From Fidelibacterota bacterium (GTDB taxonomy: Bacteria; Pseudomonadota; Alphaproteobacteria; Rhodospirillales; Rhodospirillaceae): a stretch of DNA of 64,000 nt. Of the stretch, positions 27,194 to 64,000 are shown piece by piece; position 1 is the first letter of the stretch, and every line of letters begins with the position of its first letter. A model generated the notes under the pieces. It was not told the DNA's origin. It ran no database searches and saw only the letters and a list, made by a program, of their open reading frames with translations. Location: contig CANJPG010000004.1 in NCBI GenBank assembly GCA_947476065.1, positions 1 to 64,000 of the forward strand, given 5' to 3'. The translations under genes were made by a program, and so were the position numbers.

Positions 27194-27395
27194 GCCGGGG
27201 CGGCGGCGGCGCAGCCCGCCCGTAGCACCCGAGCTGGCGGCTCAGGGGCCGCCACGGACCACACAAAAATCGCCCAAACCTTTACCAAAAAACAGAAATT
27301 TCCCAAAAGGAGCCCCCGCAAGCGACCCTTCGGCTCTGGCCTTTACCCCGCGCTGCGGCAATAATAGTAGGGAAATCAATAGGGGGACACGAGGC

Positions 27396-28061
27396 TTGGG
27401 TACCGCCAAAGCTTATTCGGTGCGCGCGTCAATCGCTGCGGCATGTCTGGTGTTTGCGGCCTCCAGCCAGGCCGGGACGCTGAACGCGCACGTCACGACA
27501 TCCGACGGCACGCCCTTGCCGGCCGCGGTCGTCACCGCCATGCCCGTAGGCCAAGGGGCAATCGCCGTCAAAGCCGGGGCAAAAGCAATGATGGTGCAGG
27601 AAGGCAAGCAGTTCATGCCGTTTATCCTGCCCGTGCAGTTGGGCACGACGGTCGAATTTCCCAACCGCGATCCCTTCCGCCACCAGGTCTATTCGTTTTC
27701 GCCCGCAAAAACCTTTGAGCTCAAGCTGTACGGCAGCTCGGTCGTGGGCACGGCCACCTTCGACAAGGAAGGCGTCGTGCCGCTGGGGTGCAACATCCAC
27801 GACAATATGCTCGCCTACATCTACGTCGTCGGCACGCCATACTTCGCCTCCACCGAACCAAACGGCGAAACCAAAATCGGCCAACTTCCCGCTGGCAGCT
27901 ATACGGTGAAAGTGTGGCACCCCAACGAAAAAGCCGGGCAAGGTGATGCCGGCACCGTGCAAATCGGCGCCAACGACACCGTCGATGTCACAGTGAAGAT
28001 CGAGCTGAAACGTAATCGGACCCAACGCAAACCCGGGGCGGTCGACGAAAACGACTATTGA
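27396..28061 (+). CDS. Secreted cupredoxin-like protein
   Basis: About 221 residues with a signal peptide (cleavage near AASSQA), then a carboxypeptidase-regulatory-like beta fold (TSDGTPLPAAVVTA, GQLPAGSYTVKVWHP) combined with a plastocyanin-like copper site: His in FPNRDPFRHQVYSF and Cys, His and Met in LGCNIHDNML. Such proteins are often labelled methylamine utilization proteins, but no mau genes are here. The start is probably TTG 27396 with GGGGGA upstream; GTG 27420 is an alternative. Its stop overlaps or closely abuts the GGDEF-EAL gene, so the two are coupled. Confidence 0.78.
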   Translation: MGTAKAYSVRASIAAACLVFAASSQAGTLNAHVTTSDGTPLPAAVVTAMPVGQGAIAVKAGAKAMMVQEGKQFMPFILPVQLGTTVEFPNRDPFRHQVYSFSPAKTFELKLYGSSVVGTATFDKEGVVPLGCNIHDNMLAYIYVVGTPYFASTEPNGETKIGQLPAGSYTVKVWHPNEKAGQGDAGTVQIGANDTVDVTVKIELKRNRTQRKPGAVDENDY

Positions 28062-28087
28062 ACGCAGCTTTTGCGAGGCGAAGAAGC

Positions 28088-30511: not shown

Positions 30512-30556
30512 CCATGGACGTGAGTACCATGGGCGGGCGGCGATGAGCGTGCCGTC

Positions 30557-31837
30557 ATGAGTCGCCACCTTGCCGCTAAGACGATCTTGTTGCCCATCGC
30601 GCTGATGGCGCAGATGACGGCTGCCCGGGCCCTGGACGACGTCCTGTCCGCCGGGTCCTTCAGCCTCGACGTCAGCGGCTACGGCGAGGGCCGCGTCATC
30701 ATGACCAGCACCACGCAGAGTTGGGAAAACGCCGGCCTGGGAAAGGTCCGCTACGGAGGCGGCGCCAGCGGCGGCCGCGACGTTCTGGCCCGCGCCGAGG
30801 GCGCTGTGGTGCTGCAGCCCAAGTTCGGCTTCGACTGGACGGGCACCGTTGTGCTTACCGCCGCCGCCGAACAGCGCCAGACCGTCGACATCACCGAGGC
30901 GTTTTTACAATACAAGCCGGCGCCCGCGGGGGAAGTCGGCTTCCGCGCCAAAGCCGGCGCCTTCTTCCCGCCCATTTCCGCCGAGAACAGCGGCTTGGCC
31001 TGGACCAGCCCCTACACGGTCACGTCATCGGCCATAAACAGCTGGGTCGGCGAGGAGCTAAAGACTATCGGCGGCGAAGCCACCATCTTCCGCCGCACCG
31101 AGGACCTGGAACTCGACCTGACCGGCGCGGTCTACATGGCCAACGATCCTGCCGGCACGCTGCTGGCCTGGCGCGGCTGGTCGTTCAATGATCGCGAAAC
31201 GGGTCTACTGGATCGCCTACAACTGGCGCCCATCCGCATCATTAGGCCGACCGGCAAGCTGGCAACGCAGGCGTCGACCGAGAAACCCTTCCATGAGGTC
31301 GACCAACGCGCCGGATTTTACGCCGCGCTGAGCGCCGAGCACGCCGACTTCGGCAAACTTTCGGTGCTCTGGTACGACAACCGCGCCAACGACCACGGCT
31401 TTGAGAAGGGCCAATGGGCTTGGCGGACAAAATTCCTCAGCGTCAGTTACAAAAACCAGCTTGCGAACGATATCGACGTGATCGCGCAATTCATGCAGGG
31501 CACAACGACGGTCATCACCATCCCCAAGCCGGTGGGGCCCATCGTTTATACGGCCTACTGGTCGGCCTTCGGGCTCGTCAGCAAGGATTGGGACCGCAAC
31601 CGCATCAGCCTCAGGGCCGAGTATTTCAAGACCACCGATCGGGACATCTTCCCCGACAATAACAACGAGCACGGCATGGCGCTGACGGCGGCTTACGTCT
31701 TCCGGCCCTCGCCGCATCAGCGGCTGACGTTCGAGCTGCTTTACGTTAATAGTTTGAGGCCGGAACGCACCTTCATGGCTCTGCCGGCGCGCGCCCAAGA
31801 AACGCAAAGCCAGATCAGCTATCGCTTTCTCTTTTAG
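30557..31837 (+). CDS. Outer-membrane beta-barrel protein
   Basis: A 426-residue protein with a signal peptide (cleavage near AARA-LDD) and alternating beta strands throughout, ending in aromatic SYRFLF, a typical outer-membrane insertion signal. Segments such as EAFLQYKPAPAGEVGFRAKAGAFFPP and late ISLRAEYFKT-type strands suggest a porin-like barrel. I recognise no specific family. It is 45 bases downstream of the GGDEF-EAL gene and is the third gene of the cupredoxin operon, so the set may sense and admit a periplasmic substrate such as copper. Confidence 0.7.
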   Translation: MSRHLAAKTILLPIALMAQMTAARALDDVLSAGSFSLDVSGYGEGRVIMTSTTQSWENAGLGKVRYGGGASGGRDVLARAEGAVVLQPKFGFDWTGTVVLTAAAEQRQTVDITEAFLQYKPAPAGEVGFRAKAGAFFPPISAENSGLAWTSPYTVTSSAINSWVGEELKTIGGEATIFRRTEDLELDLTGAVYMANDPAGTLLAWRGWSFNDRETGLLDRLQLAPIRIIRPTGKLATQASTEKPFHEVDQRAGFYAALSAEHADFGKLSVLWYDNRANDHGFEKGQWAWRTKFLSVSYKNQLANDIDVIAQFMQGTTTVITIPKPVGPIVYTAYWSAFGLVSKDWDRNRISLRAEYFKTTDRDIFPDNNNEHGMALTAAYVFRPSPHQRLTFELLYVNSLRPERTFMALPARAQETQSQISYRFLF

Positions 31838-49311: not shown

Positions 49312-51717
49312 TTGGGGGACGTCTATAAGATCGCGATCGTCGGGTCAGGTCCCGGCGGTCTCAGCGCCGCAGCTCATGCTGCGAAGCTTGGGGTCAGGCA
49401 CGTTCTACTCGAACGCACCGACCACCTCTCGGACACCATCTACAAGTACCAGAAAGGCAAGTACGTCATGTCGACGCCCGACGTGCTGCCGCTGCGCGCC
49501 GACGTCACTTTCAATGCCGGCAAGCGCGAAACCATCCTCGACGCCTGGAACAAACAAATCGCCGACGTGAAGGCCAACGTTCGCTACAACGCTGACGTCA
49601 CCGCCGTGAACAAGGACGGCGAGATTTTTAAAATAAAGCTGGCCGACGGCGCCGTGATCGAAGCCGAGGCCGTCGTGTTGGCCATCGGGCTGCAGGGCAA
49701 TTTGAACAAGCTGCGCTGCGAAGGCGCCGGCCTGCCGCTGGTGCAATATCAGCTGGACGATCCCGACGAATACGAGGCCGAGACAATCGTCGTTATCGGC
49801 GCGGGCGACGCCGGCATCGAGAATGCCATCGCGCTGTCGAAGCAGAACACCGTCATCATGGTGAACCGCTCGAGCGAATTCGCCCGCATCAAGCAGGGCA
49901 ACCTCTCGCTGATCACCAACGCCATCGAGAAGGGCGATATCCAGTGCTACTTCAGCGCCGAGACCCATAAGATCGAGGAGAAAGCGATCATCCTACAGAC
50001 CGCCGACGGCCAGGCCCGCGTGGCCTGCGACCGCATCATCGCGCGCCTCGGCGCCGCTGCGCCGCGCAAGTTTGTGGAGTCCTGCGGCATCAAATTTCCC
50101 AACGAGGATCGCACCTCATTGCCCGAGGTCAGTCCGACCTATGAATCCAATGTTCCGGGCCTTTACATCATCGGCGCCCTCGGAGGGTATCCGCTGATCA
50201 AACAGGCGATCAACCAGGGTTTTGAGGTTGTCGAGTACATCCTCGGCAACCCTATTGCGCCCGCCGATCAGCCGCTGATAGAACGCAAGTTCGCCGGCCT
50301 GAAGCCGGCGACCGTCGAGGAGGTGCTGGCGGAAATCCGCGACGTCATTCCGGTCTGGCACAGCCTGAACCCCTTGCAGCTGCGCGAAGCCATGCTGGAT
50401 TCGGAAATGCATGTCCTGAAGACGGGTGCGACGGTCTTCAAACGCAACGACTACACCAGCTCGTTCTTCACCGTGCTGCGCGGCACCGTCGGCATTCAGA
50501 TCGATGCCAACGACCCGAAAAAGATGATCACACTGGGTCCGGGCGCTTTCTTCGGCGAAATGGGCCTGATCTCTGGCCGCAGACGTAGCGCCACCGTGGT
50601 CACCGTCGGCGACTGCGTGCTGTTCGAAACGCCGCGCCGCACGATGCTGAAGTTGATCGGCTCGGTCGACAGCCTGCGCCGCACCCTGGACCAGGTCGCT
50701 ATCATGCGCCAGGTGCAGACTCACCTCGCACCCGGTGTTCCGGTCGCCGATCTGATGGAACTGGTGGAGACCGCCGAGATCCAAAAGTTCAAGGCCGGCG
50801 ATGTCATCTTTGCCCAGGGCGACAAGGGCGACCACATGCACCTGATCCGTTCGGGCTCGTGCACTGTATCGATGCGCGTCGGCGGCAAGGATGTGGTGCT
50901 CAGCTACGTGCCGTCGGGCAACTATATCGGCGAGATGGCGCTGCTTTCGGATATGCCGCGCTCGGCAACCGTCAAGGCTGCCCATGCCACCGAGACGGTC
51001 TGCATCAAAGGGGAATCCTTCAAAACTCTGCTCGAACGCAACGCGCCCCTAAAGGCCAGCGTCGAAGCCAAATTCCGCCAGCGCATCAAAGCCAACGAAC
51101 AGATGCAGAAGCAGCCCGAAGCGGGCAGCATCATCGAGTTCCTGATTGCCCAAGGCGTCGGCGAAGGCACCGACGTGCTGCTGATCGATGAATCGCTCTG
51201 CGTCCATTGCGACAATTGCGAAAAAGCCTGCGCCGAAACCCACGGCGGCATTTCGCGCCTCGACCGAGAGGCCGGCCCCACCTTCGCCACACTGCATGTG
51301 CCCACGTCCTGCCGTCACTGCGAGCATCCGCACTGCATGTCCGATTGCCCGCCCAACGCCATTCACCGCACGCCCGGCGGCGAGGTCTATATCGACGACA
51401 GCTGCATCGGCTGCGGCAACTGTGAAAGAAACTGTCCCTACAAGGTCATCCAGCTGGCCTACCCGCCCGATGAGAAGTTCAACATCTTCTCCTGGCTGCT
51501 GTTCGGCAAAGGGCCGGCGCCTGGGGAGGCCATGTCCTACAAAAGCAAGAACGGCCGCGACGACCACGGCCACAGCGAGAAGACCAAACGCGCCGTGAAG
51601 TGCGATATGTGCAAGGGCATTCCCGGCGGCGCCTCCTGCGTGCGCGCCTGTCCCACGGGTGCCGCGCTGCGCGTGAGCCCGGAAGAATTCATGTCCGTCA
51701 CCACGCTGTCGGGCTAG
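49312..51717 (+). CDS. Flavin oxidoreductase - 2x cNMP-binding - 4x[4Fe-4S] fusion protein
   Basis: An 801-residue cytoplasmic protein with three modules. Residues 1-335: thioredoxin-reductase-like flavoprotein with FAD motif IAIVGSGPGGLSAAAH and second nucleotide site VVIGAGDAGIENA; no CxxC disulfide is seen. Residues 350-590: two cyclic-nucleotide-binding domains, each with an intact phosphate cassette (FGEMGLISGRRRSATV and GEMALLSDMPRSATV). Residues 620-790: a DmsB/NrfC-like module with four Cys groups (CVHCDNCEKAC, CRHCEHPHCMSDCP, CIGCGNCERNCP and CDMCK...CVRACP), enough for four clusters. The start is TTG 49312. First gene of the cluster; likely NAD(P)H-driven electron input under second-messenger control. 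Confidence 0.88.
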   Translation: MGDVYKIAIVGSGPGGLSAAAHAAKLGVRHVLLERTDHLSDTIYKYQKGKYVMSTPDVLPLRADVTFNAGKRETILDAWNKQIADVKANVRYNADVTAVNKDGEIFKIKLADGAVIEAEAVVLAIGLQGNLNKLRCEGAGLPLVQYQLDDPDEYEAETIVVIGAGDAGIENAIALSKQNTVIMVNRSSEFARIKQGNLSLITNAIEKGDIQCYFSAETHKIEEKAIILQTADGQARVACDRIIARLGAAAPRKFVESCGIKFPNEDRTSLPEVSPTYESNVPGLYIIGALGGYPLIKQAINQGFEVVEYILGNPIAPADQPLIERKFAGLKPATVEEVLAEIRDVIPVWHSLNPLQLREAMLDSEMHVLKTGATVFKRNDYTSSFFTVLRGTVGIQIDANDPKKMITLGPGAFFGEMGLISGRRRSATVVTVGDCVLFETPRRTMLKLIGSVDSLRRTLDQVAIMRQVQTHLAPGVPVADLMELVETAEIQKFKAGDVIFAQGDKGDHMHLIRSGSCTVSMRVGGKDVVLSYVPSGNYIGEMALLSDMPRSATVKAAHATETVCIKGESFKTLLERNAPLKASVEAKFRQRIKANEQMQKQPEAGSIIEFLIAQGVGEGTDVLLIDESLCVHCDNCEKACAETHGGISRLDREAGPTFATLHVPTSCRHCEHPHCMSDCPPNAIHRTPGGEVYIDDSCIGCGNCERNCPYKVIQLAYPPDEKFNIFSWLLFGKGPAPGEAMSYKSKNGRDDHGHSEKTKRAVKCDMCKGIPGGASCVRACPTGAALRVSPEEFMSVTTLSG

Positions 51718-51730
51718 GGGGATCAGGCCC

Positions 51731-52552
51731 ATGCATGAGTCAATCCTGATCTACCGCAAGCACCGCTACTTGAAGTGGGCGCTCGCCTTGGCGGCCGTCA
51801 GCGCCGTGATCTACCTGATCGATCGGCCGCTGGGCGCACCCAACGGCGGCACCTGGCTCGGCTATGCGCTGGGAACCGCCGCTGGCGGCCTGATGCTATG
51901 GTTGGCGTGGTTCGGCGTGCGCAAGCGGCGCTACGGCGTCGGCAAAGTCCCGCTGGAGGATTGGCTGTCGGCGCACATCTATCTCGGCACCGCGCTGGCC
52001 CTCATCGCCACGCTGCATTCGGGTTTCCAGCTCGGGCTCAACATCCATTCGGTGCTCTATGTCACGATGATGATCACCATCATCAGCGGCATGGTCGGGC
52101 TTTATTTTTACGTCAGCTATCCGCGCCTGCTGACCGAGAACCGGCGCGGGCTATCGACCGAAGTAATGCTGGGCCAGATCGCCGAGCTTGACCGCGATGT
52201 GCGCCAGATCGCCATGGCCACGGATGACGCCACCAATGCCATGGCGCTGAAATCGACGCAGGACACCATCCTCGGCGGCACCGCGCTTCAACAGTTGCGC
52301 GGCTTCGATGAACATTGCCCGACCACGCTGGCCCGCCAGTTTGTCGAGAGCAGCGTCTCCAGCCAGCACGACGCCCAGCGGCGCCAGCTGTTGACCCGCC
52401 TTATCCGCAAGGAGGATTTGCTCAAACGTATCCGCCGCGACGTGCAGCTGCGCTGCCTGTTGAAGGTTTGGCTTTACGTGCATGTGCCCTTTTCCATCGC
52501 CGCCTTGGCCGCACTCGTCACCCATGTGGTGACGGTGTTTTATTATTGGTGA
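51731..52552 (+). CDS. b-type cytochrome-like membrane protein
   Basis: A 273-residue inner-membrane protein with about five helices. His residues that could ligate heme sit in helix positions: SAHIYLG, TLHSGFQLG, NIHSVLYV, YVHVPFS and VTHVVTVFYYW. A soluble loop of about 85 residues (about 145-240) separates helices 4 and 5. It is not a typical NrfD or cytochrome b561 sequence. It starts 13 bases after the Fe-S oxidoreductase gene, so it is the natural membrane partner that takes electrons from the Fe-S module across the membrane. Heme binding is inference. Confidence 0.7.
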   Translation: MHESILIYRKHRYLKWALALAAVSAVIYLIDRPLGAPNGGTWLGYALGTAAGGLMLWLAWFGVRKRRYGVGKVPLEDWLSAHIYLGTALALIATLHSGFQLGLNIHSVLYVTMMITIISGMVGLYFYVSYPRLLTENRRGLSTEVMLGQIAELDRDVRQIAMATDDATNAMALKSTQDTILGGTALQQLRGFDEHCPTTLARQFVESSVSSQHDAQRRQLLTRLIRKEDLLKRIRRDVQLRCLLKVWLYVHVPFSIAALAALVTHVVTVFYYW

Positions 52553-52556
52553 GCCC

Positions 52557-54347
52557 GTGCGCACGCTGATACGCCACGTCACACGCAAAAGCCGCGGCGG
52601 CACCGCCGTCCGCGATGAGGTTGCCGAAGGCGAGAAGATTCTCGCCGGCCGCGGCAACGACTGCGCCATCCATCTGCCCGACCCGCGCGTCATGCTGCAT
52701 CACGCCGACCTGACGATACGCGACGGCAAGCTTTATGTTTTGGCCGCACCCGGCGCCGACCTGCGCGTGGGTGACAGCCTCACGCAAATCTCGAAACTCG
52801 ACGTCGGCAGCAAAATCCGCATCGGCCCTTACGAAATAGAATTTGCCGAGAAGGGCGGAGACTTCGATTTCACCCTGCACGTCGAACTGGTTCTGGCTCT
52901 GGGCGACGACCTTGAAAAGCTGGTGGCGCGGTCGCGCATACACATCGACCGCATAGGCCTGTCGATGCGCGCGTGGGTATGGCTGTTGGCGAGCGTCGTC
53001 CTCATTGGGACTTTTGTAGCGCCTTTCGTATTCAACCTTCTCGTCGGCCCGCCGCCGGATAAATTATCGTTGGCGCCCGGAAAGCAGCATTATGTCGCGG
53101 CGCCAACCAAAGTCTGGACCAGCGGCTCGATCTCGGCGGCCCACAAGTTCTTTGGCGATTCCTGCGAGAGCTGCCACGAAAAGCCCTTTGTGCCGGTGCG
53201 CGACCGGGCCTGCCTGACCTGTCACGCCGGCGTGCAGAACCATGCGCAGCCGGCCATCTTCCCCTTCGCCGATCTTTCGGAGCGCACCTGCCAAAGCTGT
53301 CACAAGGAACATCAGGGCAATGTAACCATCGTGTTGGGCGATGAGGGCTTCTGCGCCGACTGCCACAAGGACATGGGCGCCAGGACAACACGCAGTACAC
53401 TCGCCAATGCCTCCGATTTTGGCCTTCACCATCCCGAGTTCCGGCCGACCATGGTGAAGGATCCAGCGCTGCACAGCATGGACCGCAGCCGCAGTATCGG
53501 CGGCACGCCGCCGCCGGTTGAAAATTCCGGTTTGAAGTTCCCTCACGACAAGCACCTGCGCACTACCGGCGTCAAAGACCCGGGGCGCGGCGTCGTCACC
53601 CTGCAATGCGCCGATTGCCATACGCCGAACGAGACCGGCGAGACCATGCAGGCGGTGTCGTTCGAACAAAATTGCCATAGCTGTCATATCCTGCGCTTCG
53701 ACACCTTCGTGCCCGACCGTGAGCTGGCCCACGGCAAACCTGATGAGGTTTTCAAGCAAGTCCGCGATGTTTACGACGCTCTCGCCATGCGCGGCGGTTA
53801 TGAGGAGCCGACGGCGCCTGCGCTCCTGCGGCGCAAACCCGGCGAGCCGCTCAGCCCGGTCGAAAAGGTGACCGCGACAAATTGGGCGGCGTCCAAAACT
53901 GCCGACGTCTTCAATGGCCGCTTCGGACGGGGGCTGTGTGAGGAATGTCACCGCACGTTTGATACCAATACAGGCAAGCCCACGCCCACCGCATTGCCTG
54001 AACCCAAACCGTGGAGCATCGAGCCGCCCACCGTTACGACCCTGTGGATGCCCAAGGCCTATTTCACTCACGCGCGCCACGCCGACGTGCCCTGCGCTGA
54101 ATGTCACGCCGCTAAAGCTTCGACATCGTCCACCGACGTCTTGATTCCCGGCATCGCCATCTGCCAGTCCTGTCACGGCGGCGAAAAAGCCGCCGACCGC
54201 GTGCCGTCCACCTGCGTGTCCTGCCACCGCTTCCACCGCAAGGATCTGGAGCCGATGCGCCCCGAAAAAGCCGATGCCGCGCCTCACATCCTGCCGCGAG
54301 AGCGAACCTTCGCCGGCGGAACTTTGCCCATGTGGGAGAAGCCATGA
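52557..54347 (+). CDS. FHA-like domain - membrane helix - ten-heme cytochrome c fusion
   Basis: A 596-residue protein. Residues 1-135: an FHA-like domain (ILAGRGNDCAIHLPDP then VMLHHADLTIRDGKLYV) that keeps the first Arg and the HxA strand but not the usual Ser. Residues 138-163: one membrane helix. The rest is periplasmic with ten CxxCH heme motifs: CESCH, CLTCH, CQSCH, CADCH, CADCH, CHSCH, CEECH, CAECH, CQSCH and CVSCH. The helix acts as signal anchor, putting the FHA domain in the cytoplasm and the hemes in the periplasm. The start is GTG 52557, five bases after the previous stop. Confidence 0.88.
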   Translation: MRTLIRHVTRKSRGGTAVRDEVAEGEKILAGRGNDCAIHLPDPRVMLHHADLTIRDGKLYVLAAPGADLRVGDSLTQISKLDVGSKIRIGPYEIEFAEKGGDFDFTLHVELVLALGDDLEKLVARSRIHIDRIGLSMRAWVWLLASVVLIGTFVAPFVFNLLVGPPPDKLSLAPGKQHYVAAPTKVWTSGSISAAHKFFGDSCESCHEKPFVPVRDRACLTCHAGVQNHAQPAIFPFADLSERTCQSCHKEHQGNVTIVLGDEGFCADCHKDMGARTTRSTLANASDFGLHHPEFRPTMVKDPALHSMDRSRSIGGTPPPVENSGLKFPHDKHLRTTGVKDPGRGVVTLQCADCHTPNETGETMQAVSFEQNCHSCHILRFDTFVPDRELAHGKPDEVFKQVRDVYDALAMRGGYEEPTAPALLRRKPGEPLSPVEKVTATNWAASKTADVFNGRFGRGLCEECHRTFDTNTGKPTPTALPEPKPWSIEPPTVTTLWMPKAYFTHARHADVPCAECHAAKASTSSTDVLIPGIAICQSCHGGEKAADRVPSTCVSCHRFHRKDLEPMRPEKADAAPHILPRERTFAGGTLPMWEKP

Positions 54348-54748
54348 AAAGGCTTCTGTTTCTCGGCATTTTGATGCTTGCTACGCCGGTCTCGGCGGCG
54401 ACGCTGTCGCCGGACGACACCGATCTTGGCCGCATCACTGCTGCAAAGGCAGCCGACGGACTGGTCATCGCGGTGGACGCCGATGACAAAATGCCGCTGG
54501 CGACGCACGTCGTTGCGCGCTTTCAAAACAATCAGCCGCTCATGCGCGGACGTGACGGCCTTTGGGCGGTGTGGGACGGTGATCCGGCGCATCTCGACGA
54601 CGTTGGCGTGATCCCGGCGGAAGGTAAATTCAGCTTCGCCATTTTCGATCGTTTGCCCGCGGGTCTTTTCTTCCCCGTGAGTTTTACGGTCATTGTGCAG
54701 GGCGCAACGGGACTGACGTCCGGCACGCTTGTGGTGGATGGTCCATGA
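54344..54748 (+). CDS. Small secreted protein of the multiheme cluster
   Basis: A 134-residue protein with a signal peptide (MKRLLFLGILMLATPVSAA). The mature part is a beta-rich stretch (VVARFQNNQPLMRGRDGLWAVWDGD, SFAIFDRLPAGLFFPVSFTVIV). There are no Cys and no heme motifs. I recognise no family. The ATG overlaps the stop of the ten-heme gene (ATGA), and its own stop overlaps the next start (ATGA), so it is tightly coupled into the operon. It may be a periplasmic accessory or chaperone. Confidence 0.72.
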   Translation: MKRLLFLGILMLATPVSAATLSPDDTDLGRITAAKAADGLVIAVDADDKMPLATHVVARFQNNQPLMRGRDGLWAVWDGDPAHLDDVGVIPAEGKFSFAIFDRLPAGLFFPVSFTVIVQGATGLTSGTLVVDGP

Positions 54749-56613
54749 GACTCATCACCGCCCTATGGTTTGTGCTGGCGGTGGCTTGCGACGCCCGGGC
54801 GCAAACGGCGCCCAGCCTGACCGTCGCCGATGTCGACAAAATTATCGGCCAAGCTCTCGGTGAAGCTGCGGCGCGCGGTACAAATAATGGCGCCATCGCC
54901 GTGGTCGACCGCGTCGGCAACGTGCTGGGTGTCTATGCGCCGAACCCCGCGAATATTCCGCTGCTGACCATCACGTCAGGCCGCGGCATACCGGCGAACA
55001 ACGGCCTCGAGGCTGTGAACATCCTGCCCGCGACCTACGGCGCCTTGGCCAAGGCAATCACCGGCGCATACCTGTCGTCGTCGGGCAACGCCTTCACTAC
55101 CCGCACCGCCAGCCAGATCGTGCAGGAACATTTTAACCCCGGCGAAAAAAACACGCCCAGCGGGCCGTTGTTCGGTGTGCAATTCAGCCAGCTGCCGTGC
55201 TCCGACCTCGCACGCTTTGGTGAAGCCCCGGGTATCGGCCCGCGCCGCTCGCCGCTGGGCCTTTCGGCCGACCCTGGCGGTGTACCGCTGTATAAAGACG
55301 GCCAGGTCGTGGGCGGCGTCGGCGTGCTGTTCGACGGCGTCTATGGGCTTGATCTCAAGATCGAGGACTACGATCAGAACCTCGACGAATTGATTGCCGT
55401 CGCGGCGCAGCAGGGCTTCGAGCCGCCCGCCGACATCGCCAGCCGCATCACCGCCGACGGCAAATTCCTCACTTACGCCGATGTCGACAAACGCGACCTT
55501 AAGTCAACGGCCGCCGTGGCGGTCAACCCCGCGAACTACGTCGCCGTCGCCGGTTATACGCCGGCAGGGCGCCGCGCCGGCGCGGCCTTTGGCACAGTTG
55601 GCGCCGGCCTACGCCCCGAAGGCCGCGTCGAATATCCGGCAGTGGACGCCTGGGTGCTCGACGACGGGTTGGGTAACAACCGCTATGCGCCGCGCAATGG
55701 GCTTGCGCCAGCCGCAGCCAATGGCGGGCTTGCCGCCGCTGAAGTGCGCACGATTGTCTCCGAAGCGCTGAAGGTCGCCTTCGCCGCCCGCGCGCAGATC
55801 CGCAGGCCTCTGGGCAGTTATGCCCAAGTCACCGTATCGGTGGTCGATGCCGAGTCCAATATTCTCGCCGTCGCGCGCACTCCCGATGCGCCGGTCTTCG
55901 GAACCGACGTCTCGCTGCAGAAAGCGCGCACCGCCGTCTTTGCTTCACGGCCGACGACCACCTCCGAACTGCGCGCCGTGCCTGCCGTGACGTTGATCCC
56001 AGGCACGCTCTCGACACCGCCCCTCGCGTCCTACGTCGATGCCGCCCAGGCCTTGTTGGGGCCGACGGCGTTCGCGGACGGCGTGGCTTTCAGCGACCGC
56101 GCCATAGGCCTCCTCGCCCGCCCCTTCTATCCCGACGGCATCGAGAAGCAGCCCCCCGGCCCGTTGAGCAAACCCTACGCGGTGTGGAGCCCCTTCAACG
56201 ACGGCCTGCAGCTCGATCTCGTGCTGCCCGATATCGTCGCGCGCCTCGACGGCAGCCCGCCGCCGCCGCAAGGCTGCACCGCCCTGCCCCGTTCAGCGGC
56301 TGCCGGGCCCGGGCCGGGTCCGACGCGGCTTGCCAACGGCTTGCAGATTTTCCCCGGCGGCGTGCCGATCTATCGCGGCAGCACGCTCATTGGCGGCGTT
56401 GGGGTTTCGGGTGACGGCGTCGACCAGGACGACATGATCTCGTTCCTGGGCCTCCACAATGCCGGCCTCGCGCTGAACTCAGGCGTTGGCCACGCGCCGA
56501 AGGAACGCCGTGCCGACACATTGGATGCCGCAGGCTTAAATCCGCGTTACGTGCAGTGTCCCTTTACACCGTTCAATACATCGCGGGAGCAGAACGTATG
56601 CTCCGGCAAATAA
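54745..56613 (+). CDS. Tandem GlcG/HbpS-type domain protein, secreted
   Basis: A 622-residue protein with a signal peptide (VLAVACDARAQ). Two GlcG/HbpS-like domains are visible, each with the AxAVVDRxGNVLGVY- or VTVSVVDAESNILAVAR-type strand and a late GGVPLYKDGQVVGGVGV / GGVPIYRGSTLIGGVGV segment; they are at about 30-200 and 340-590. Such domains bind heme or cofactors and can sense redox. Cys residues are few (LPCSDL, QGCTAL, VQCPF, NVCSGK). It overlaps its neighbours by 4 and 16 bases. A heme-handling role in cytochrome maturation or sensing is inference. Confidence 0.75.
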   Translation: MRLITALWFVLAVACDARAQTAPSLTVADVDKIIGQALGEAAARGTNNGAIAVVDRVGNVLGVYAPNPANIPLLTITSGRGIPANNGLEAVNILPATYGALAKAITGAYLSSSGNAFTTRTASQIVQEHFNPGEKNTPSGPLFGVQFSQLPCSDLARFGEAPGIGPRRSPLGLSADPGGVPLYKDGQVVGGVGVLFDGVYGLDLKIEDYDQNLDELIAVAAQQGFEPPADIASRITADGKFLTYADVDKRDLKSTAAVAVNPANYVAVAGYTPAGRRAGAAFGTVGAGLRPEGRVEYPAVDAWVLDDGLGNNRYAPRNGLAPAAANGGLAAAEVRTIVSEALKVAFAARAQIRRPLGSYAQVTVSVVDAESNILAVARTPDAPVFGTDVSLQKARTAVFASRPTTTSELRAVPAVTLIPGTLSTPPLASYVDAAQALLGPTAFADGVAFSDRAIGLLARPFYPDGIEKQPPGPLSKPYAVWSPFNDGLQLDLVLPDIVARLDGSPPPPQGCTALPRSAAAGPGPGPTRLANGLQIFPGGVPIYRGSTLIGGVGVSGDGVDQDDMISFLGLHNAGLALNSGVGHAPKERRADTLDAAGLNPRYVQCPFTPFNTSREQNVCSGK

Positions 56614-58337
56614 CCGCGGCGCTTGTTCTTGCCATATGCGCGGGAAACGCCGTCCAGGCCCAGGAGGAGCCGCCGCGCCGGCGTCCCGGCGCCGAGCAGG
56701 CTCCCGACCTTCCGCCCATCGACCCCACTGCGGTTTCACCGCCGCTGCGCGATGTGCCGCGAGAGAGCCTGCCGATCCCCGACCGCTGGCGGCTCGTCGA
56801 TGCAGTCGGCGTGAAGACCAACTGGTGGGACCCCTATAACCAGAACGCCCTGAAGGCCGACCGTCCGCTGTTCTACGACTGGTTCATCAATGTCGGCGTG
56901 GTTTCTGATACGGTTTATGAACTGCGCGGCTTGCCGGTCCCCGTAGGGCCTCAAGGCGCAGGACCCAGCAGCGTCGATATCTTCGGCCAGATCAGCCAGA
57001 ACATTTTCGTGCAAAGTCTGATCCCATCACTGTCGCTCATCAAGGGCGACACCGCGTTTCGCCCGCCGGACTATGAAATTCGCCTGACGCCGGTGATCAA
57101 TTACAACCGTGTCGCGGTCAAAGAAAACCGCCTGCTGAATATCAACCCCCTGGCCAGAAATGTCCGCGACGACGCTCATATCGCGTTGCAGGAGGCGTTC
57201 CTCGACTACCACCTGCGCAACGTCTCTGACCGGTTCGATTTTGACTCCCTGCGGGTCGGCATTCAGCCGGTCAATCTCGATTTCCGCGGCTTTCTGTTTC
57301 TTGATCAGCAGCTCGGCGTGCGGTTCTTCGGCAACCGCGACAATAACCACATCCAATACAATCTCGGCTGGATGCGCCGGCTGGAGAAGGACACCAACTC
57401 GGGCCTTAACGACCTCGGCAAACGCCTCCGCGATGACGACGTCTTCTTCGCCAATCTCTATTGGCAGGACCTGCTGGTCGCGGGCTTCACCACTCAGTTT
57501 GTCGTCGCCTATAACCGCAACCGTGAAGGCAACGACGCACCCTTTTATAATGAAAACGGATTCCTCGAGCGGCCGGCGTCGCTCGGGTACGAACGCCCGC
57601 TCGACTATGACGTGGTCTATCTCGGCCTTAATGGCGATGGTCATCTTGGCCCGGTAAATCTCACGCACTCATTCTACGGCGCCTTCGGCAACATCAGCGC
57701 CAACCCGTTCACGTCGCGCACGCGCGCGGAGCCTGCGAAAATCCGCGCTTTCTTCGGCGCTGTTGAACCTTCCTTGGACTTCGATTGGATCCGCCTGCGC
57801 GGCCAAGCCCTTTATGCCTCCGGCGACGGTGATGCCTTCGACAACACCGCCGGCGGCTTCGATGCCATTTTCGAGAACCCGCAATTCGCCGGGGCCGAGA
57901 CCAGTTATTGGATCCGCCAGCCGGTACCTCTGATCGGCGGCGGCGGCGTGGCGCTGTCGGCGCGCAACGGGGTGCTCAACAGCCTGCGGACTTCCAAGGA
58001 ACAGGGGCAACCCAACTTCGTCAGCCCCGGCACGATGCTTCTGGGCGCCGGCGCGGACTTCGACTTGCTGCCGGAACTGCGGGTATCCGCTAACGTCGAT
58101 CATCTATGGTTCGCCGAGAAGGCCGTGGTCGAAGTGCTGCGCAACCAGCCGCTGGAATCAAAATCCATTGGTTGGGATACGTCGCTCTCGGCGATCTATC
58201 GGCCCACCTTTATTCAGAACGTCGCCTTCCGCGCCTCGGGTGCGACGCTGTTCGGTGGTAAAGCTTTCGATGCGTTGTTTAATACGGACGGCAAGACGTT
58301 CTACTCAGTGCTGCTCAACCTGATCCTGACCTATTGA
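56598..58337 (+). CDS. Predicted outer-membrane beta-barrel of the multiheme cluster
   Basis: About 579 residues with a signal peptide (ending GNAVQAQEE) and a Pro-rich start (PPRRRPGAEQAPDLPP). The rest is rich in alternating amphipathic strands and ends in TFYSVLLNLILTY, an aromatic-terminated last strand typical of outer-membrane barrels. It lacks the CxxC of MtrB and I do not recognise a named family. The start ATG 56598 has GGGAG upstream and lies inside the preceding gene. Placed between two ten-heme cytochromes, it is the best candidate for the porin sheath of an electron conduit. Confidence 0.7.
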   Translation: MLRQITAALVLAICAGNAVQAQEEPPRRRPGAEQAPDLPPIDPTAVSPPLRDVPRESLPIPDRWRLVDAVGVKTNWWDPYNQNALKADRPLFYDWFINVGVVSDTVYELRGLPVPVGPQGAGPSSVDIFGQISQNIFVQSLIPSLSLIKGDTAFRPPDYEIRLTPVINYNRVAVKENRLLNINPLARNVRDDAHIALQEAFLDYHLRNVSDRFDFDSLRVGIQPVNLDFRGFLFLDQQLGVRFFGNRDNNHIQYNLGWMRRLEKDTNSGLNDLGKRLRDDDVFFANLYWQDLLVAGFTTQFVVAYNRNREGNDAPFYNENGFLERPASLGYERPLDYDVVYLGLNGDGHLGPVNLTHSFYGAFGNISANPFTSRTRAEPAKIRAFFGAVEPSLDFDWIRLRGQALYASGDGDAFDNTAGGFDAIFENPQFAGAETSYWIRQPVPLIGGGGVALSARNGVLNSLRTSKEQGQPNFVSPGTMLLGAGADFDLLPELRVSANVDHLWFAEKAVVEVLRNQPLESKSIGWDTSLSAIYRPTFIQNVAFRASGATLFGGKAFDALFNTDGKTFYSVLLNLILTY

Positions 58338-58341
58338 CCAG

Positions 58342-61300
58342 ATGATCAAGAAACTCGCATTAGCGCTAGGATTGGCGGTGCTGGCTGGAGCCAGTGCCCA
58401 CGCCGCTGGCCATGGTGAAACCGCGCGGCACATCACCTATCCATTTTACCCCGCTTCGCCGCGCCAGCAAAGTCAGGAGGAAGCCGATGCCAAAAGCGCC
58501 GGTTGCCTGTCCTGCCACAGCGCCACCGATATGCCGAGTATGCATGCCAATCCGGCGATCATTCTCGGTTGCACCGACTGCCACGGCGGCGATCCGAAAG
58601 TCGCCTTACCCGCAAGCACAGCCAAAGACACGCATGGCTACCGCGCGACCCTCGACAAAGCGCATGTACAGCCGCTGTTCCCCGAGAGCTGGCACTATCC
58701 GAAAAGCGCCAATCCGGAACGCAGCTACACGCTGCTCAACCGCGAGAGCCCGGAATTCGTCCGTTTCATCAATCCGTCCGACTACCGCGTGGCGCGCGAA
58801 AGCTGTGGCGCCTGCCACATGGAGGAAATCCAGGCGACCGAGCGCAGCCTGATGTCCACAGGTGCCATGCTGTGGGGCGGGGCCACCTATAACAACGGAA
58901 TCTTGCCCTTCAAGAATTATATTCTGGGCGAGGCCTACACGCGTGAAGGCGAAAGCGCCTTCATTAAGAGCCCCGGCAGGATCGAGCCGTGGATGACGCA
59001 GAAGCGCGGCATCCTGCCTGGCCTCTATCCCCTGCCCTCGTGGGAAACCACGCCGCCCTCCGACGTCTTCCGCGTCTTTGAACGCGGCGGGCGCAACATC
59101 GGCACACAGTTTCCGGAAATCGGTCTTCCCAACATTCAGACCTTGCTTGGCAACATTTCGCGGCTGGAGGAACCGGGCCGCCCCGACATCCGGCAAAGCA
59201 ACCGCGGGCCCGGCACAGGTTTGCGCATCGCCGTGCCCAGCATCAATATCCACAAGTCGCGGCTGAACGATCCCTACACCTGGTTCATCGGCACCAACGA
59301 CCAGCCAGGCGACTATAGGCACTCAGGCTGCGCATCGTGCCACGTGATCTACGCCAACGACCGCGACAAGGACCATAGCGGTCCCTACGCCCAGTTCGGC
59401 AACATGGGCATGACTCAGACCAAGGACCCAACGATCCCGAAGAACGAGCCCGGCCATCCGCTCACCCACGGCTTCACGCGTGCCATCCCCACCAGCCAGT
59501 GCATGGTTTGTCACATGCACCAGCCCAACATCTTCCTGAACTCGATGCTGGGCTACACCATGTGGGACTACGAGTCCGATGCGCCAGCCATGTGGCCCGA
59601 GAAGCAGCGATATCCCTCGGCCGAGGAGATGCACCAGACCCTCGAGCGCAATCCCGAGGAGGCCGCCGTGCGCGGCAAATGGGCGGACCTCGCGTTCCTC
59701 AAGGACGTGAGCAAACTGAACCCGACACTGAAGGACACGCAATTCGCCGACTACCACGGCCACGGCTGGAACTTCCGCGCCATCTTCAAGCGCGACCGCA
59801 AAGGCAACCTGCTCGACAAAACGGGCCAGAAGGTCGCCAACGACGATCCGCACAAATTCGACAAAGCCGTGCATATGAAGTCGATTCACGTCGAACTGGG
59901 AATGCAGTGCGTCGATTGCCATTTCGGCCAAGACGCCCACGGCAACGGCTATATCCAAGGCGAAGTCGCCAATGCCATCGAGATCCGCTGCGTCGATTGT
60001 CACGGCGATGCCGATAAGTACCCCACTTTGCGTACGTCCGGTCCGGCGGCGCGTGCAGGCGGTTCCGACCTTTCCACGCTACGTGTTCAAGATGGCCGCA
60101 AGCGGTTTGAATGGAAAGGCACCGAGTGCGACCGTCCGGTCACGCAAAACCGCGACTGCAAGCTGTTCCAGCGCTCGGCGGTCGATCCCAAACTCGAATG
60201 GGACGTCAGCCTCGTCAAGGACAGCATCAACCCCGACAACGCCCGCTACAACGCCAAGGCCGCGCGGGCGAAACTGATGAGCGCCAACGTCAATCAGAAG
60301 TGGGGTCCGGGTGTCGCGCCCGAGAACCGCGCCCACAAAAGCAGCGAGATGGAGTGCTACACCTGCCATCTGTCGTGGACCACCGCCTGCGCCGGCTGCC
60401 ATCTGCCGATCCAGGCCAACTGGAAAACCGAACGCCACCACTTCGAAGGCGGCGAGAGCCGCAACTTCGCGACTTACAACCCGCAGGTGGCGCGCGACGA
60501 CATGTTCCAGCTGGGCATCCACCAGACCACCAAGGGCAACACCATCGCCCCCGTGCGCTCGACGTCGGCGCTAATCCTGTCATCGACCAACATTAACCGC
60601 GAAAAACTCTACATCCAGCAGCCACCCATCGCGGCCTCGGGCTATTCAAGCCAGGCCTTCGCGCCCCACTACCCCCACACCGAACGCAAGGAAGAGACCA
60701 AGACCTGCACCGATTGCCATGTCTCGCAGGCCAAGGACAACAATGCCATCATGGCGCAGCTCCTGTTGCAGGGAACCAATTTCGTCAATTTCGTCGGCTA
60801 CAACGCCTGGGTCGGCGGAAAGGGCGGCATCGAAGCGGTGAACGTCACCGAGTGGGATGAACCGCAGGCGGTCATCGGCAGCTACCTGCAGCGTTACGCC
60901 TACCCCGACTGGTACAGGCAGCACCAAGACCGCGGCCGCAAGCTGAAGGAAAGCCACACCCACAGCGGCGGCGAAGCCAACTGCCTGCAGCTGCGCGGCG
61001 AATACCTGTTCGTCGCCGAAGGCACCGACGGTATGCAGGCCTACGATGTCGCCTCTATCGCCAACAAGGGGGTCTCCCAGCGCATCATCACCGCCCCCTT
61101 CTCGCCGCTTGGCCACGATACGCGCGTCGCCAGCAAGAACGCCACCTGCGTGGCGCTGCCCACCAATCAGCCGATCGCGCCGACGCGCATGAATGAAAGC
61201 GAAGAGAAAAAGAAGCTGATGCAGGAGGACAATCAGGAACAGCCGATCCACCCGCTGTATTCCTACGCCTTCGTCACCGATGCGGTGGAAGGCCTGATTG

Positions 61301-62181
61301 CCATCAACGTCGATACCCTGGCCGACGGCGAGCCGCGCAATAACTTCCTGAAACGCGCCATGGCCTGGAATGAGGGCGGCGTGCTCACCGGCGCCCGCCA
61401 TATCACCATCGCCGGCACCATTTTTTACATCGCGACAGATGCCGGCATTGTAATGCTCGACATGGACGATCCGCTGAAACCCAAGCTCATCACCACTCTG
61501 CCCTTCGACGGCGCCCGAGCCACCGCCGTGCAGTTCCGCTACCTCTACGTCACCGATAAAAATGGCCTGCACACCGTAGATGTCACCGATCCGCGCAAGC
61601 CTGTGAGCGTGATGGGCGCCGACATTGCTTTGGGTGATGCGCACAAAATCTATCTGGCCCGCACATTTGCCTATGTCGCCGCCGGCAAGGACGGACTGGC
61701 CATCGTCGATATTGAAAAATCCGAGAAACCGAAGCTCTTCCAGATGTTCACCGGCGATGGGAAGATCACGGATGCGCGTGACGTCATCGTCGGCACGACC
61801 AACGCATCGCTGTTTGCCTACGTCGCCGATGGCGCGAACGGCCTGAAGGTCGTGCAGCTGACCTCACCCGAGCGCCAGCCCAACTTCTACGGCTTCAGCC
61901 CCGACCCCAACCCCGAGGTCATCGCCTGGTGGCCGACAAGGTGGCCGGCCTTGGCGTTGTCGAAGGGCCTGGACCGCGACCGCGCCGTCGACGAAACCGG
62001 CCACCAGATCGCCGTCTTCGGGCGCCTGGGCTCACGCCCGATGACGCTGACGGAACAGCAGATCCTTTATATGAAGGACGGCAAAGTCTGGGGCGTGACG
62101 GACGACGTGACCATGGCCGACTTCGTGCGCGGCGAAGTCAAACGCAAATTGGAATTCGAACGGCCCGCGGCGAGGGAGTGA
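58342..62181 (+). CDS. Ten-heme cytochrome c with C-terminal LVIVD-type repeats
   Basis: A 1279-residue exported protein with signal peptide (LAGASAHAAG; no lipobox seen). Residues 1-830 hold ten CxxCH motifs: CLSCH, CTDCH, CGACH, CASCH, CMVCH, CVDCH, CVDCH, CYTCH, CAGCH and CTDCH. Residues about 880-1180 hold six LVIVD-like beta-propeller blades (for example YLYVTDKNGLHTVDVTDP and AYVAAGKDGLAIVDI). Such a propeller may bind a partner or substrate at the cell surface. It is the last gene of the cluster, four bases after the barrel gene, and is the likely terminal reductase or oxidase face. The true acceptor is unknown. Confidence 0.88.
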   Translation: MIKKLALALGLAVLAGASAHAAGHGETARHITYPFYPASPRQQSQEEADAKSAGCLSCHSATDMPSMHANPAIILGCTDCHGGDPKVALPASTAKDTHGYRATLDKAHVQPLFPESWHYPKSANPERSYTLLNRESPEFVRFINPSDYRVARESCGACHMEEIQATERSLMSTGAMLWGGATYNNGILPFKNYILGEAYTREGESAFIKSPGRIEPWMTQKRGILPGLYPLPSWETTPPSDVFRVFERGGRNIGTQFPEIGLPNIQTLLGNISRLEEPGRPDIRQSNRGPGTGLRIAVPSINIHKSRLNDPYTWFIGTNDQPGDYRHSGCASCHVIYANDRDKDHSGPYAQFGNMGMTQTKDPTIPKNEPGHPLTHGFTRAIPTSQCMVCHMHQPNIFLNSMLGYTMWDYESDAPAMWPEKQRYPSAEEMHQTLERNPEEAAVRGKWADLAFLKDVSKLNPTLKDTQFADYHGHGWNFRAIFKRDRKGNLLDKTGQKVANDDPHKFDKAVHMKSIHVELGMQCVDCHFGQDAHGNGYIQGEVANAIEIRCVDCHGDADKYPTLRTSGPAARAGGSDLSTLRVQDGRKRFEWKGTECDRPVTQNRDCKLFQRSAVDPKLEWDVSLVKDSINPDNARYNAKAARAKLMSANVNQKWGPGVAPENRAHKSSEMECYTCHLSWTTACAGCHLPIQANWKTERHHFEGGESRNFATYNPQVARDDMFQLGIHQTTKGNTIAPVRSTSALILSSTNINREKLYIQQPPIAASGYSSQAFAPHYPHTERKEETKTCTDCHVSQAKDNNAIMAQLLLQGTNFVNFVGYNAWVGGKGGIEAVNVTEWDEPQAVIGSYLQRYAYPDWYRQHQDRGRKLKESHTHSGGEANCLQLRGEYLFVAEGTDGMQAYDVASIANKGVSQRIITAPFSPLGHDTRVASKNATCVALPTNQPIAPTRMNESEEKKKLMQEDNQEQPIHPLYSYAFVTDAVEGLIAINVDTLADGEPRNNFLKRAMAWNEGGVLTGARHITIAGTIFYIATDAGIVMLDMDDPLKPKLITTLPFDGARATAVQFRYLYVTDKNGLHTVDVTDPRKPVSVMGADIALGDAHKIYLARTFAYVAAGKDGLAIVDIEKSEKPKLFQMFTGDGKITDARDVIVGTTNASLFAYVADGANGLKVVQLTSPERQPNFYGFSPDPNPEVIAWWPTRWPALALSKGLDRDRAVDETGHQIAVFGRLGSRPMTLTEQQILYMKDGKVWGVTDDVTMADFVRGEVKRKLEFERPAARE

Positions 62182-62486: not shown

Positions 62487-63755
62487 CTATGTCTCGATAC
62501 GGGAATGTTTTTTCGTGTCGGGCATGATCGCATAGATCACCAGCGACAGCGCGATGCAGGTACTGACGTACCAATAGAACCACGGCTCGTGCCCCGAAAC
62601 CTTCAGCCACAACGCCACGTATTCGGCGCTGCCGCCGAAAATCGCCACGGTCAGCGCGTACGGCAGACCCACGCCCAGCGCGCGTACGTGGGCCGGAAAC
62701 AGTTCGGCTTTGACGACCGCATTGATCGACGTGTAGCCGCTGACGGCCACAAGCCCCGCCATAATGAGAGCGAAAGCGATCCAGGTGTCCTTGGTGCCGC
62801 CAAGGGCGGTCAGCAACGGCACCGTTCCGAGCGTACCCAACACACCAAAGGCCAGCAGCAGCGGCCGCCGGCCGATACGGTCGGACAAGGCTCCCACCAC
62901 CGGCTGCAGCAGCATGAACACAAACAGCGCCGCAGTGGAGATCAGCGTGGCGTCATCCTTGCTGAAACCCGATGTATTCACCATGAACTTCTGCATGTAG
63001 GTCGTATATGTGTAGAAGGCCACCGTACCGCCCAGAGTAAGGCCGAACACCGTCAGCACAGCGCGCGGATGGCGCAGAAGTTCGCGCAGCGTTCCGCGCT
63101 CTGCCCGCTGCGAGGCGACGGTGAAGGCTTCGGTTTCGGCGATGCCCCGGCGCAGGTAGAACGCCACCAGGGCGCAGGCCGCGCCGATAAAAAACGGAAT
63201 ACGCCATCCCCAGGACGACAGCTGCGCCGGCGTCAGCACAAACTGCTGCAGGATGATGAGCAGCGCCAAGGCGAGCAGCTGCCCCATGATCAGCGTGACG
63301 TACTGGAAGCTGGAGTAGAAGCCGCGGTGCTTTTCCAATGCCATTTCGCTGAGGTATGTGGCGCTGGTGCCGTATTCGCCGCCCACGCTCAAGCCTTGCA
63401 GCAGCCGGGCGAGCAGAAGGATAGCCGGCGCGGCGATGCCGATCTCGGCGTATCCCGGCGTGACCGCGATGACCAGCGAACCCAGGCACATGAAGGTCAC
63501 CGACACGGTGAGTGCGGCCTTGCGGCCATGGCGATCGGCATAGAGCCCCATGAGCCAGCTGCCCGCCGGGCGGGCGAGAAAACCCACGGCAAAGATTGCG
63601 GCGGTATTCAGCAGCTGGGCGGTGAAGTCAGCGTTGGGGAAAAACACCGGCGCGAAATACAAGGACAGCGCCGAATAGATGTACCAGTCGTACCACTCCA
63701 CCAGGTTGCCGATGGATCCGCCGATAATCGACTTCAGGCGGTGAAGAGGCGTCAA
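62487..63755 (-). CDS. MFS transporter, metabolite:H+ symporter type
   Basis: A 422-residue inner-membrane transporter with 12 helices. Typical metabolite:H+ symporter segments are IGNLVEWYDWYIYSALSLYF, FLARPAGSWLMGLYADRHGR, LSVGGEYGTSATYLSEMA and the late LFPAHVRALGVGLPY. This group imports organic acids such as citrate, alpha-ketoglutarate or shikimate; the substrate here is open. The start is probably TTG 63755, overlapping the stop of the upstream gene (TTGA); the longer open frame to 63851 is an artefact of that overlap. Confidence 0.88.
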   Translation of the reverse strand: MTPLHRLKSIIGGSIGNLVEWYDWYIYSALSLYFAPVFFPNADFTAQLLNTAAIFAVGFLARPAGSWLMGLYADRHGRKAALTVSVTFMCLGSLVIAVTPGYAEIGIAAPAILLLARLLQGLSVGGEYGTSATYLSEMALEKHRGFYSSFQYVTLIMGQLLALALLIILQQFVLTPAQLSSWGWRIPFFIGAACALVAFYLRRGIAETEAFTVASQRAERGTLRELLRHPRAVLTVFGLTLGGTVAFYTYTTYMQKFMVNTSGFSKDDATLISTAALFVFMLLQPVVGALSDRIGRRPLLLAFGVLGTLGTVPLLTALGGTKDTWIAFALIMAGLVAVSGYTSINAVVKAELFPAHVRALGVGLPYALTVAIFGGSAEYVALWLKVSGHEPWFYWYVSTCIALSLVIYAIMPDTKKHSRIET

Positions 63756-64000
63756 CCTTCGGCCTTCGCCACGGCGGTCTCGAGGGATTGCAGTGCGCCC
63801 AGGAATTTCTTGGGCTCGAAAGCTTCGTCCTTTTCCACGGCGTCGTAACACTTGTCGAGCACCGCCAGCAGCCCCTTGTGCTGCGCCGGCGACAACATGC
63901 GCTCGTCCTTCATGGCGTCGATGATCGCCGCCAGCGCCATGGTCGCCTGTTCGGCGGCGGCATAGTCCACGTACTCGCCGCGCAGGCCGTGGCTGATGAC
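63752..64000 (-). CDS. Partial gene running off the window, unknown function
   Basis: The C-terminal 82 residues are visible; the frame stays open to the window edge (SHGLRGEYVDYAAAEQ), so the true start lies beyond 64000 or at an internal codon (GTG 63970 or the Met in EQATMALAAI). The visible part is helical (LSPAQHKGLLAVLDKCYDAV, FLGALQSLETAVAKAEG) with one Cys. I recognise no family. Its stop overlaps the TTG start of the MFS gene, so both are likely co-transcribed. Confidence 0.65.
   Translation of the reverse strand, partial: VISHGLRGEYVDYAAAEQATMALAAIIDAMKDERMLSPAQHKGLLAVLDKCYDAVEKDEAFEPKKFLGALQSLETAVAKAEG

Follow-up and report, generated by a model that had tools for sequence, protein, structure and literature searches.

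A candidate NAD(P)H-fed electron conduit with cyclic-nucleotide-binding domains, encoded by a conserved proteobacterial gene cluster related to PCC4

We analyzed a stretch of 64,000 nucleotides (hereafter the window), namely, positions 1 to 64,000 of contig CANJPG010000004.1 from assembly GCA_947476065.1, and within it a cluster of seven plus-strand genes at positions 49312-62181. The first-pass annotation, made from the sequence alone, had placed seven near-contiguous open reading frames in this interval and read them as a cytoplasm-to-surface electron conduit under second-messenger control; all seven were located at the positions it gave. The genes of the cluster, termed g1 to g7, and an eighth gene of the same system, g8, are the following:

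g1, 49312..51717, plus strand: 801 amino acids; cytoplasmic flavin adenine dinucleotide (FAD)/NAD(P) oxidoreductase domain, two cyclic nucleoside monophosphate (cNMP)-binding domains and four 4Fe-4S cysteine sets
g2, 51731..52552, plus strand: inner-membrane protein, di-heme b-type candidate
g3, 52557..54347, plus strand: degenerate forkhead-associated (FHA)-like cytoplasmic head, a single membrane segment (residues ~133-163) and a periplasmic ten-heme cytochrome
g4, 54344..54748, plus strand: small secreted protein
g5, 54745..56613, plus strand: secreted protein with tandem HbpS-like domains
g6, 56598..58337, plus strand: outer-membrane beta barrel, as modelled
g7, 58342..62181, plus strand: 1279 amino acids; ten-heme cytochrome with a C-terminal LVIVD beta-propeller
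g8, 63752..64000 in the window (3' part; full gene C4:63752-65089), minus strand: c554-like cytochrome of 445 amino acids

Gaps of 13 bp separate g1 from g2, and of 4 bp g2 from g3 and g6 from g7. The genes g3 and g4 overlap by 4 bp when the start of g4 is taken as ATG 54344 (instead of GTG 54332), as do g4 and g5. The overlap between g5 and g6 amounts to 16 bp if g6 starts at ATG 56598, and the M15 column of g6 is conserved to at least 90%.

The description of g1 as a flavin/Fe-S protein with two cNMP-binding domains holds, as Pfam recognizes Pyr_redox_2/3, two cNMP_binding domains and Fer4, the oxidoreductase domain being YpdA/TrxR-like. Its four sets of four cysteines are kept in 61/61 homologues, and the Glu and Arg that bind the cyclic nucleotide phosphate are present in 60 of these 61 sequences for the first domain and in 57 for the second; from these conserved motif residues, binding of a cyclic nucleotide is predicted. 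The Fe-S family PF13247 also matches g1 (34.0 bits against a cutoff of 26.2), directly upstream of g2. In two genomes, G302 and G183, g1 and g2 are fused into a single protein, which argues for direct passage of electrons from one to the other. Fusions of about 1120 amino acids, followed by a g3 with nine CXXCH motifs, lie at L174:3052-6420 and L175:7850-11203, and g5 to g8 were not found in the stretches fetched around them. The inner module (g1 to g3) therefore seems, from these fusions, to be portable. Elsewhere in the window, at 26093-27193, a class III adenylate/guanylate cyclase domain (PF00211) is encoded, from which a cNMP signal might come.

For g2, previously described as a His-rich membrane protein, the membrane assignment stands, and the protein is better named a di-heme b-type candidate. 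Four histidines, H82, H96, H251 and H265, are invariant in 63/63 sequences, and together they make up two WX3HX13H motifs (W78/H82/H96 and W247/H251/H265), accompanied by an SGxxG motif (S119-G120/G123) whose glycines are invariant and whose serine is conserved at 97%, with W78 at 98%. These motifs make g2 a candidate b-type cytochrome with two hemes. Its AlphaFold2 (AF2) model has a predicted local distance difference test score (pLDDT) of 90.1. The sole Pfam signal is a sub-threshold match to the ferric-reductase family PF01794 (15.1 bits against a cutoff of 28), and the sequence search of PDB gave weak matches at most, the best to ATP synthase subunit b (E 0.041). Fold matches are helical bundles with Z of at most 10.9, among them cytochrome b of the b6f complex (Z 7.9) and of complex III (Z 6.5-6.7), and are not decisive.

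Ten CXXCH motifs were counted in each of g3 and g7, as the first reading of both as ten-heme cytochromes had it. In g3, Pfam detects cytochrome c7/c3 domains after the sub-threshold FHA match; homologues carry ten CXXCH in 51 of 52 cases and nine in the remaining one, and each of the ten motifs and of ten additional histidines is kept by at least 97% of 61 sequences. Because ten extra histidines are conserved beside the ten motifs, the pattern is consistent with bis-His ligation throughout, and all g3 hemes are probably ligated in this way. As for the cytoplasmic head, a phosphothreonine-binding FHA domain was considered and rejected, given its score for PF00498 (19 bits against a cutoff of 20.7) and the absence of Ser-Arg from the expected position in 25 sequences, as judged by eye; the GR is kept.

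The gene g8 is convergent with g7 and lies beyond a gene of the major facilitator superfamily, where the window edge cuts it. A gene of this c554-like type was found near the cluster in 13/13 other loci searched, besides the genome under study. Both its Pfam match and its best PDB match are cytochrome c554. It has four CXXCH motifs plus one CX4CH; the former number recurs in each of 47 homologues counted from the named-genome loci, and one CX4CH in each of 60 homologues examined. On this motif count g8 may bind five hemes.

The outer module comprises g5, g6 and g7. The AF2 model of g6 (mean pLDDT 81, the N-terminus being poorly modelled) has 18 strands of at least nine residues, and the protein ends in a C-terminal Tyr. 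The best fold match is AlgE (Z 28.7, root-mean-square deviation 2.7-2.8 over about 360 residues, 15% identity), which shows the fold and not the function; a separate fold search gave AlgE at E 4.9e-17, and the fold matches are filled by AlgE/OprD types. Thus g6, for which no Pfam or NCBIfam match was obtained, models as an outer-membrane barrel and not as a soluble protein, in line with what had been proposed for it. In g7, Pfam recognizes LVIVD repeats and cytochrome c7. Its ten CXXCH are invariant in 12 aligned homologues and present in 79 of 80 further ones, with eight in the last, and the heme part has at least ten invariant extra histidines, so that every heme could be bis-His ligated, although one could still be catalytic. 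No relative of g7 with a solved structure was found at E 0.1. The third protein, g5, has HbpS-like domains by Pfam; its four cysteines are kept in 75/75 sequences, and a lipobox-like motif, by a loose pattern, occurs in 28/61 homologues. For g4 there is no Pfam family match.

Conservation of the cluster was followed from g7. A scan of named species genomes with 12 aligned g7 sequences gave at least 594 stretches encoding relatives of it, from which the best 80 loci were kept; in 33 of these, g7 is flanked by 9 kb or more in either direction. In 31 of the 33 neighbourhoods g1, g2, g3, g5, g6 and g7 are all present, and in 22 these are joined by g8. Gene by gene, g1, g2, g3 and g5 were each found in 32, g6 in 33, g8 in 23 and g4 in five; one locus (L122) is without g5. 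Since these 33 loci are the best-scoring relatives, conservation in remoter ones may be overstated. At least three gene orders occur, namely, g1-g2-g3-g5-g6-g7, g2-g3-g5-g6-g7-g8-g1, and g8-g5-g6-g7 with g3-g2-g1 on the opposite strand. As for the extent of the cluster as first drawn, six of its seven genes are conserved, and an eighth component, g8, had been missed. The remaining gene, g4, was recognized in 12 of the 80 loci with a model built from one sequence, and so does not detectably belong to the core.

The two modules are also inherited together at larger scale. In a phylum-level sample of 398 genomes, apparently the same for the g7 and g2 scans given their identical tallies, g7 matches occur in 19 genomes and reach full-length scale in 11, and g2 was found at E <1e-100 in 12, including all 11 of the latter (hypergeometric P ~1e-20, uncorrected for relatedness of the genomes). 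The twelfth, G303, has g1, g2, g3, g5 and g6, after which the contig ends 333 bases past g6. Three genomes retain both a g1-g2-g3 unit and g7 at separate places: at 22 and 693 kb of C3 in G361, at 1007 and 385 kb of C1 in G494, and on C1 and C2 in G539. That the genes co-occur, as the first-pass annotation implied, is therefore borne out by both samples, and inter-protein distance correlations of 0.71-0.91, calculated with no control, are as expected for co-inherited genes. In an order-level sample of 150 genomes, full-length g7 appears in the genome under study and in G028 only, and a genome of the same genus given as 100% complete (G080) gave no g7 match. Plasmid records that cover 80% or more of g7 number 13 (12 Sphingobium and one Sphingopyxis), two of which were inspected, and g7 relatives occur among cultured Duganella, Steroidobacter, Limnobacter and Tahibacter. 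The titles of five metagenome-assembled genomes (MAGs; loci L127, L139, L140, L105 and L062), which name Bordetella parapertussis, Klebsiella pneumoniae, Mycobacteriaceae and Marinimicrobia, look mislabelled, so that taxonomy from titles is unreliable.

We are inclined, with slightly more confidence than doubt, to read these genes as encoding a trans-envelope electron conduit that would be fed by NAD(P)H, run outward and be switched by a cyclic nucleotide. In this scheme NAD(P)H would reduce the FAD of g1, whose 4Fe-4S clusters would pass electrons to the two b hemes of g2 and, across the inner membrane, to the ten hemes of g3. A periplasmic hop via g8 would then lead to the outer-membrane module, that is, the barrel g6, the ten-heme/propeller protein g7 and the HbpS-like g5, which would reduce an acceptor at or beyond the outer membrane. 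The electron path would run through or beside the lumen of the g6 barrel, and the two cNMP domains of g1 would probably switch electron input on and off. The composition of the cluster, its conserved cofactor motifs, the co-inheritance of the two modules and the g1-g2 fusions can be read directly from the sequences; the outward direction, the acceptor and the gating by cNMP we infer.

Several observations weigh against this reading. First, the counts of co-occurrence come with no control for cytochrome-rich genomes. Second, the module structure has gaps: g8 is absent from 10/33 neighbourhoods; L136 has g5, g6 and g7, with g1-g3 and g8 absent within its flanks; the genomes with g1-g2 fusions, G302 and G183, have g3 as well, with no g5-g8 in the stretches and no g7 match genome-wide; and G150, given as 98% complete, carries g1-g2-g3 up to near the end of its contig, with g7 unmatched in the genome. 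Because these three genomes have g1-g3 without g7, it may be that the inner module works with other partners. Third, a lipobox-like motif, by a loose pattern, occurs in only 2/80 homologues of g7 (it is also carried by the g7 of L042, a match in the same gene order). The anatomy and the co-inheritance fit the conduit as first proposed, but g7, which we would place at the outer membrane or cell surface, may be periplasmic, as it has no general lipid anchor. Fourth, the 18-strand barrel of g6 is much narrower than that of MtrB, with its 26 strands, and g6 could be a solute pore, since AlgE itself exports a polysaccharide. Geobacter ExtB is, however, also predicted with 18 strands (PMC6148476), so that a barrel of this size could still belong to a conduit.

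The regulatory regions bear on the same question. In 73 upstream regions compared with base shuffles, FNR boxes (up to two mismatches) numbered nine against 6.4, CRP boxes six against 6.4, sigma-54 boxes 14 against 15.2, and Dnr-like boxes (two mismatches) 12 against 6.4, so that none of the four types stands out. An FNR-controlled dissimilatory operon was rejected on the same counts. Anaerobic respiration is not an obvious role, given that the named hosts are mostly cultured as aerobes.

The closest described relatives are PCC3 and PCC4, putative porin-cytochrome clusters (PCCs) reported by He et al. (2017; PMC5566968), to which we refer as far as the accessible parts of that paper go. For the inner-membrane protein (IMP) of both, two b hemes were proposed from a WX3HX13H plus SGXXG motif set, and a possibly quinone-active cytochrome b was suggested (PMC5566968). 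PCC4 (subgroup II) has a PF13247 Fe-S protein gene upstream of the IMP gene, a redox gene upstream of a tetraheme gene, and periplasmic cytochromes with 4, 5 and 10 hemes, with no extracellular one (PMC5566968). Among the weaker matches to g2, we found two loci, L176 and L179, with genes for a c554-like four-CXXCH protein, a cNMP/Fe-S protein, an IMP and a ten-heme cytochrome in a row, and an FNR-type 2Fe-2S/FAD/NAD redox gene upstream; L179 also has a five-heme gene. As this gene content matches the description of PCC4, we took both loci as PCC4. Pfam recognizes cNMP-binding domains in the Fe-S protein of L179; since He et al. do not write 'cyclic' anywhere in their main text (PMC5566968), this feature may have gone unremarked.

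The two loci share with the present cluster homologues of g2, g3, g8 and the C-terminal cNMP/Fe-S part of g1; their IMPs match the g2 profile at E 7.5e-17, and the present cluster has both the IMP motifs and the PF13247 protein upstream of the IMP. In these two PCC4-like loci, however, the FNR-type gene is separate, whereas here a YpdA-like domain is fused within g1, and none of the seven genes in the row was seen to be of FNR type. The outer modules differ as well. The presumed porins of L176 and L179, two proteins assigned by position only, compare with the g6 profile at a probability of 0.1% (E 0.65), and no homologue of g5, g6 or g7 was detected at E 1e-3 in these stretches, that of L176 being only 9 kb long. 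Beside the 4, 5 and 10 hemes of the PCC4 cytochromes, g3 has ten, g8 has four CXXCH plus one CX4CH, and the third cytochrome is the ten-heme g7, which may lie on either side of the outer membrane. Judged from its genes, then, the present cluster is sister to PCC4, from which it is set apart by a fused YpdA-like NAD(P)H domain and a different outer module. The earlier proposal that its input module differs from CymA, CbcL or PioC systems is in keeping with the family scans, yet L176 and L179 carry homologues of parts of this module, which is therefore not unique.

PCC3 is like the present cluster in the IMP motifs, a partial similarity to the g2 profile and an adjacent multiheme gene. Its multihemes have medians of 34 and 21 hemes (PMC5566968), and in the PCC3-like loci L177 and L178 we counted 21 to 27 CXXCH, compared with ten each in g3 and g7. 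The protein encoded at L177:3480-4925 (minus strand), about 4 kb from a PCC3-like IMP, matches g1 in its flavin/NAD(P) portion (E 2e-69); PCC3 may also have an NAD(P)H-type partner. A Leptothrix cholodnii cluster described by the same authors, with a multiheme, an IMP and a 24-strand porin (PMC5566968), may be the present system, in which case it overlaps with their work. No published description of the present cluster was recognized in the literature searched, which covers the field partially.

The kinship with PCC3 and PCC4 brings up the opposite direction of flow, in which g7 would take electrons from a donor outside the cell (Fe(II), Mn(II), humics or a cathode) and these would enter the quinone pool or reduce NAD(P)+. 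He et al. proposed inward flow to the quinone pool for both clusters (PMC5566968), with whose possibly quinone-active IMP g2 shares its WX3HX13H and SGXXG motifs, and the isolate name of L129, Haliea Biocath_Gamma_022, suggests a biocathode. We nonetheless consider this direction improbable, in that the adjacent or fused partner of g2 is an NAD(P)H-type flavo-Fe-S protein and no quinone enzyme was recognized in the cluster. Reduction of NAD(P)+ with Fe(II) would moreover be uphill, and no coupling subunit was recognized.

Other systems resemble parts of the NAD(P)H-fed, outward conduit. In NOX/ferric reductases a flavin passes electrons across the membrane by way of two stacked b hemes, and the present cluster is alike in that a flavin would feed two membrane b hemes; it differs in the sub-cutoff PF01794 score of g2 and in adding an Fe-S relay and c-type hemes. 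MtrCAB, MtoAB and PioAB share the idea of a barrel plus multihemes, but g6 is modelled with 18 strands, and g3 scores 27.4 bits with the MtrA/DmsE-type decaheme family (TIGR03508), below its cutoff of 192.2.

The Geobacter clusters extABCD and extHIJKLMNOPQS also combine a barrel with multihemes, the second of them with a b-type cytochrome too; an LVIVD protein, a cNMP domain or an NAD(P)H module is not mentioned in the portions of their descriptions available. They suggest a further alternative, a dedicated reductase of a soluble compound such as an oxyanion, comparable to ExtI/ExtM, in which g6 would be a solute pore and g7 and g5 would be periplasmic or at the outer membrane. The heme region of g7 is indeed distantly related to ExtM (NF040943; 76.1 bits against a cutoff of 800), and both the AlgE-like, 18-strand form of g6 and the want of a general lipid anchor on g7 would suit such an enzyme. 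Hemes aside, however, no catalytic centre was recognized, and the extra histidines of g7 permit bis-His ligation of every heme, although one of them could be catalytic; we thus find this alternative unlikely. Weak matches to g7 also led to L053-L058, where lone proteins with 10-12 hemes, relatives of the g7 heme part, occur in the absence of the cluster; with ExtM, four of these reach 169-238 bits, which is short of the cutoff. A Uet undecaheme conduit, considered because of the biocathode-named MAG, was set apart by description only, as g7 shows ten CXXCH motifs, and none of the form CX3-4CH: the accessible text of one paper mentions UetJ with a porin (PMC13386937), and that of the Tenderia paper an undecaheme cytochrome, with the name Uet absent.

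Returning to the outward, NAD(P)H-fed conduit, it is possible, albeit rather doubtful, that it represents a common and overlooked machine with which mostly aerobic environmental Proteobacteria export electrons from NAD(P)H, bypassing the quinone pool, under a cAMP/cGMP switch and in a manner reminiscent of NOX. Mtr and other known conduits draw on quinols and have mostly been described in metal-respiring bacteria, in contrast to the NAD(P)H-type input and conserved cNMP-binding motifs of the present cluster. Should the conduit work as proposed, ordinary bacteria of soil and fresh water, easily grown strains included, would have extracellular electron transfer as a regulated trait.

Elsewhere in the window, a row of genes at 27390-31837 encodes a weak match to carboxypeptidase-regulatory-like proteins, a GGDEF-EAL sensor and a 426-amino-acid protein, which is without a Pfam match and looks, by eye, like an outer-membrane protein.

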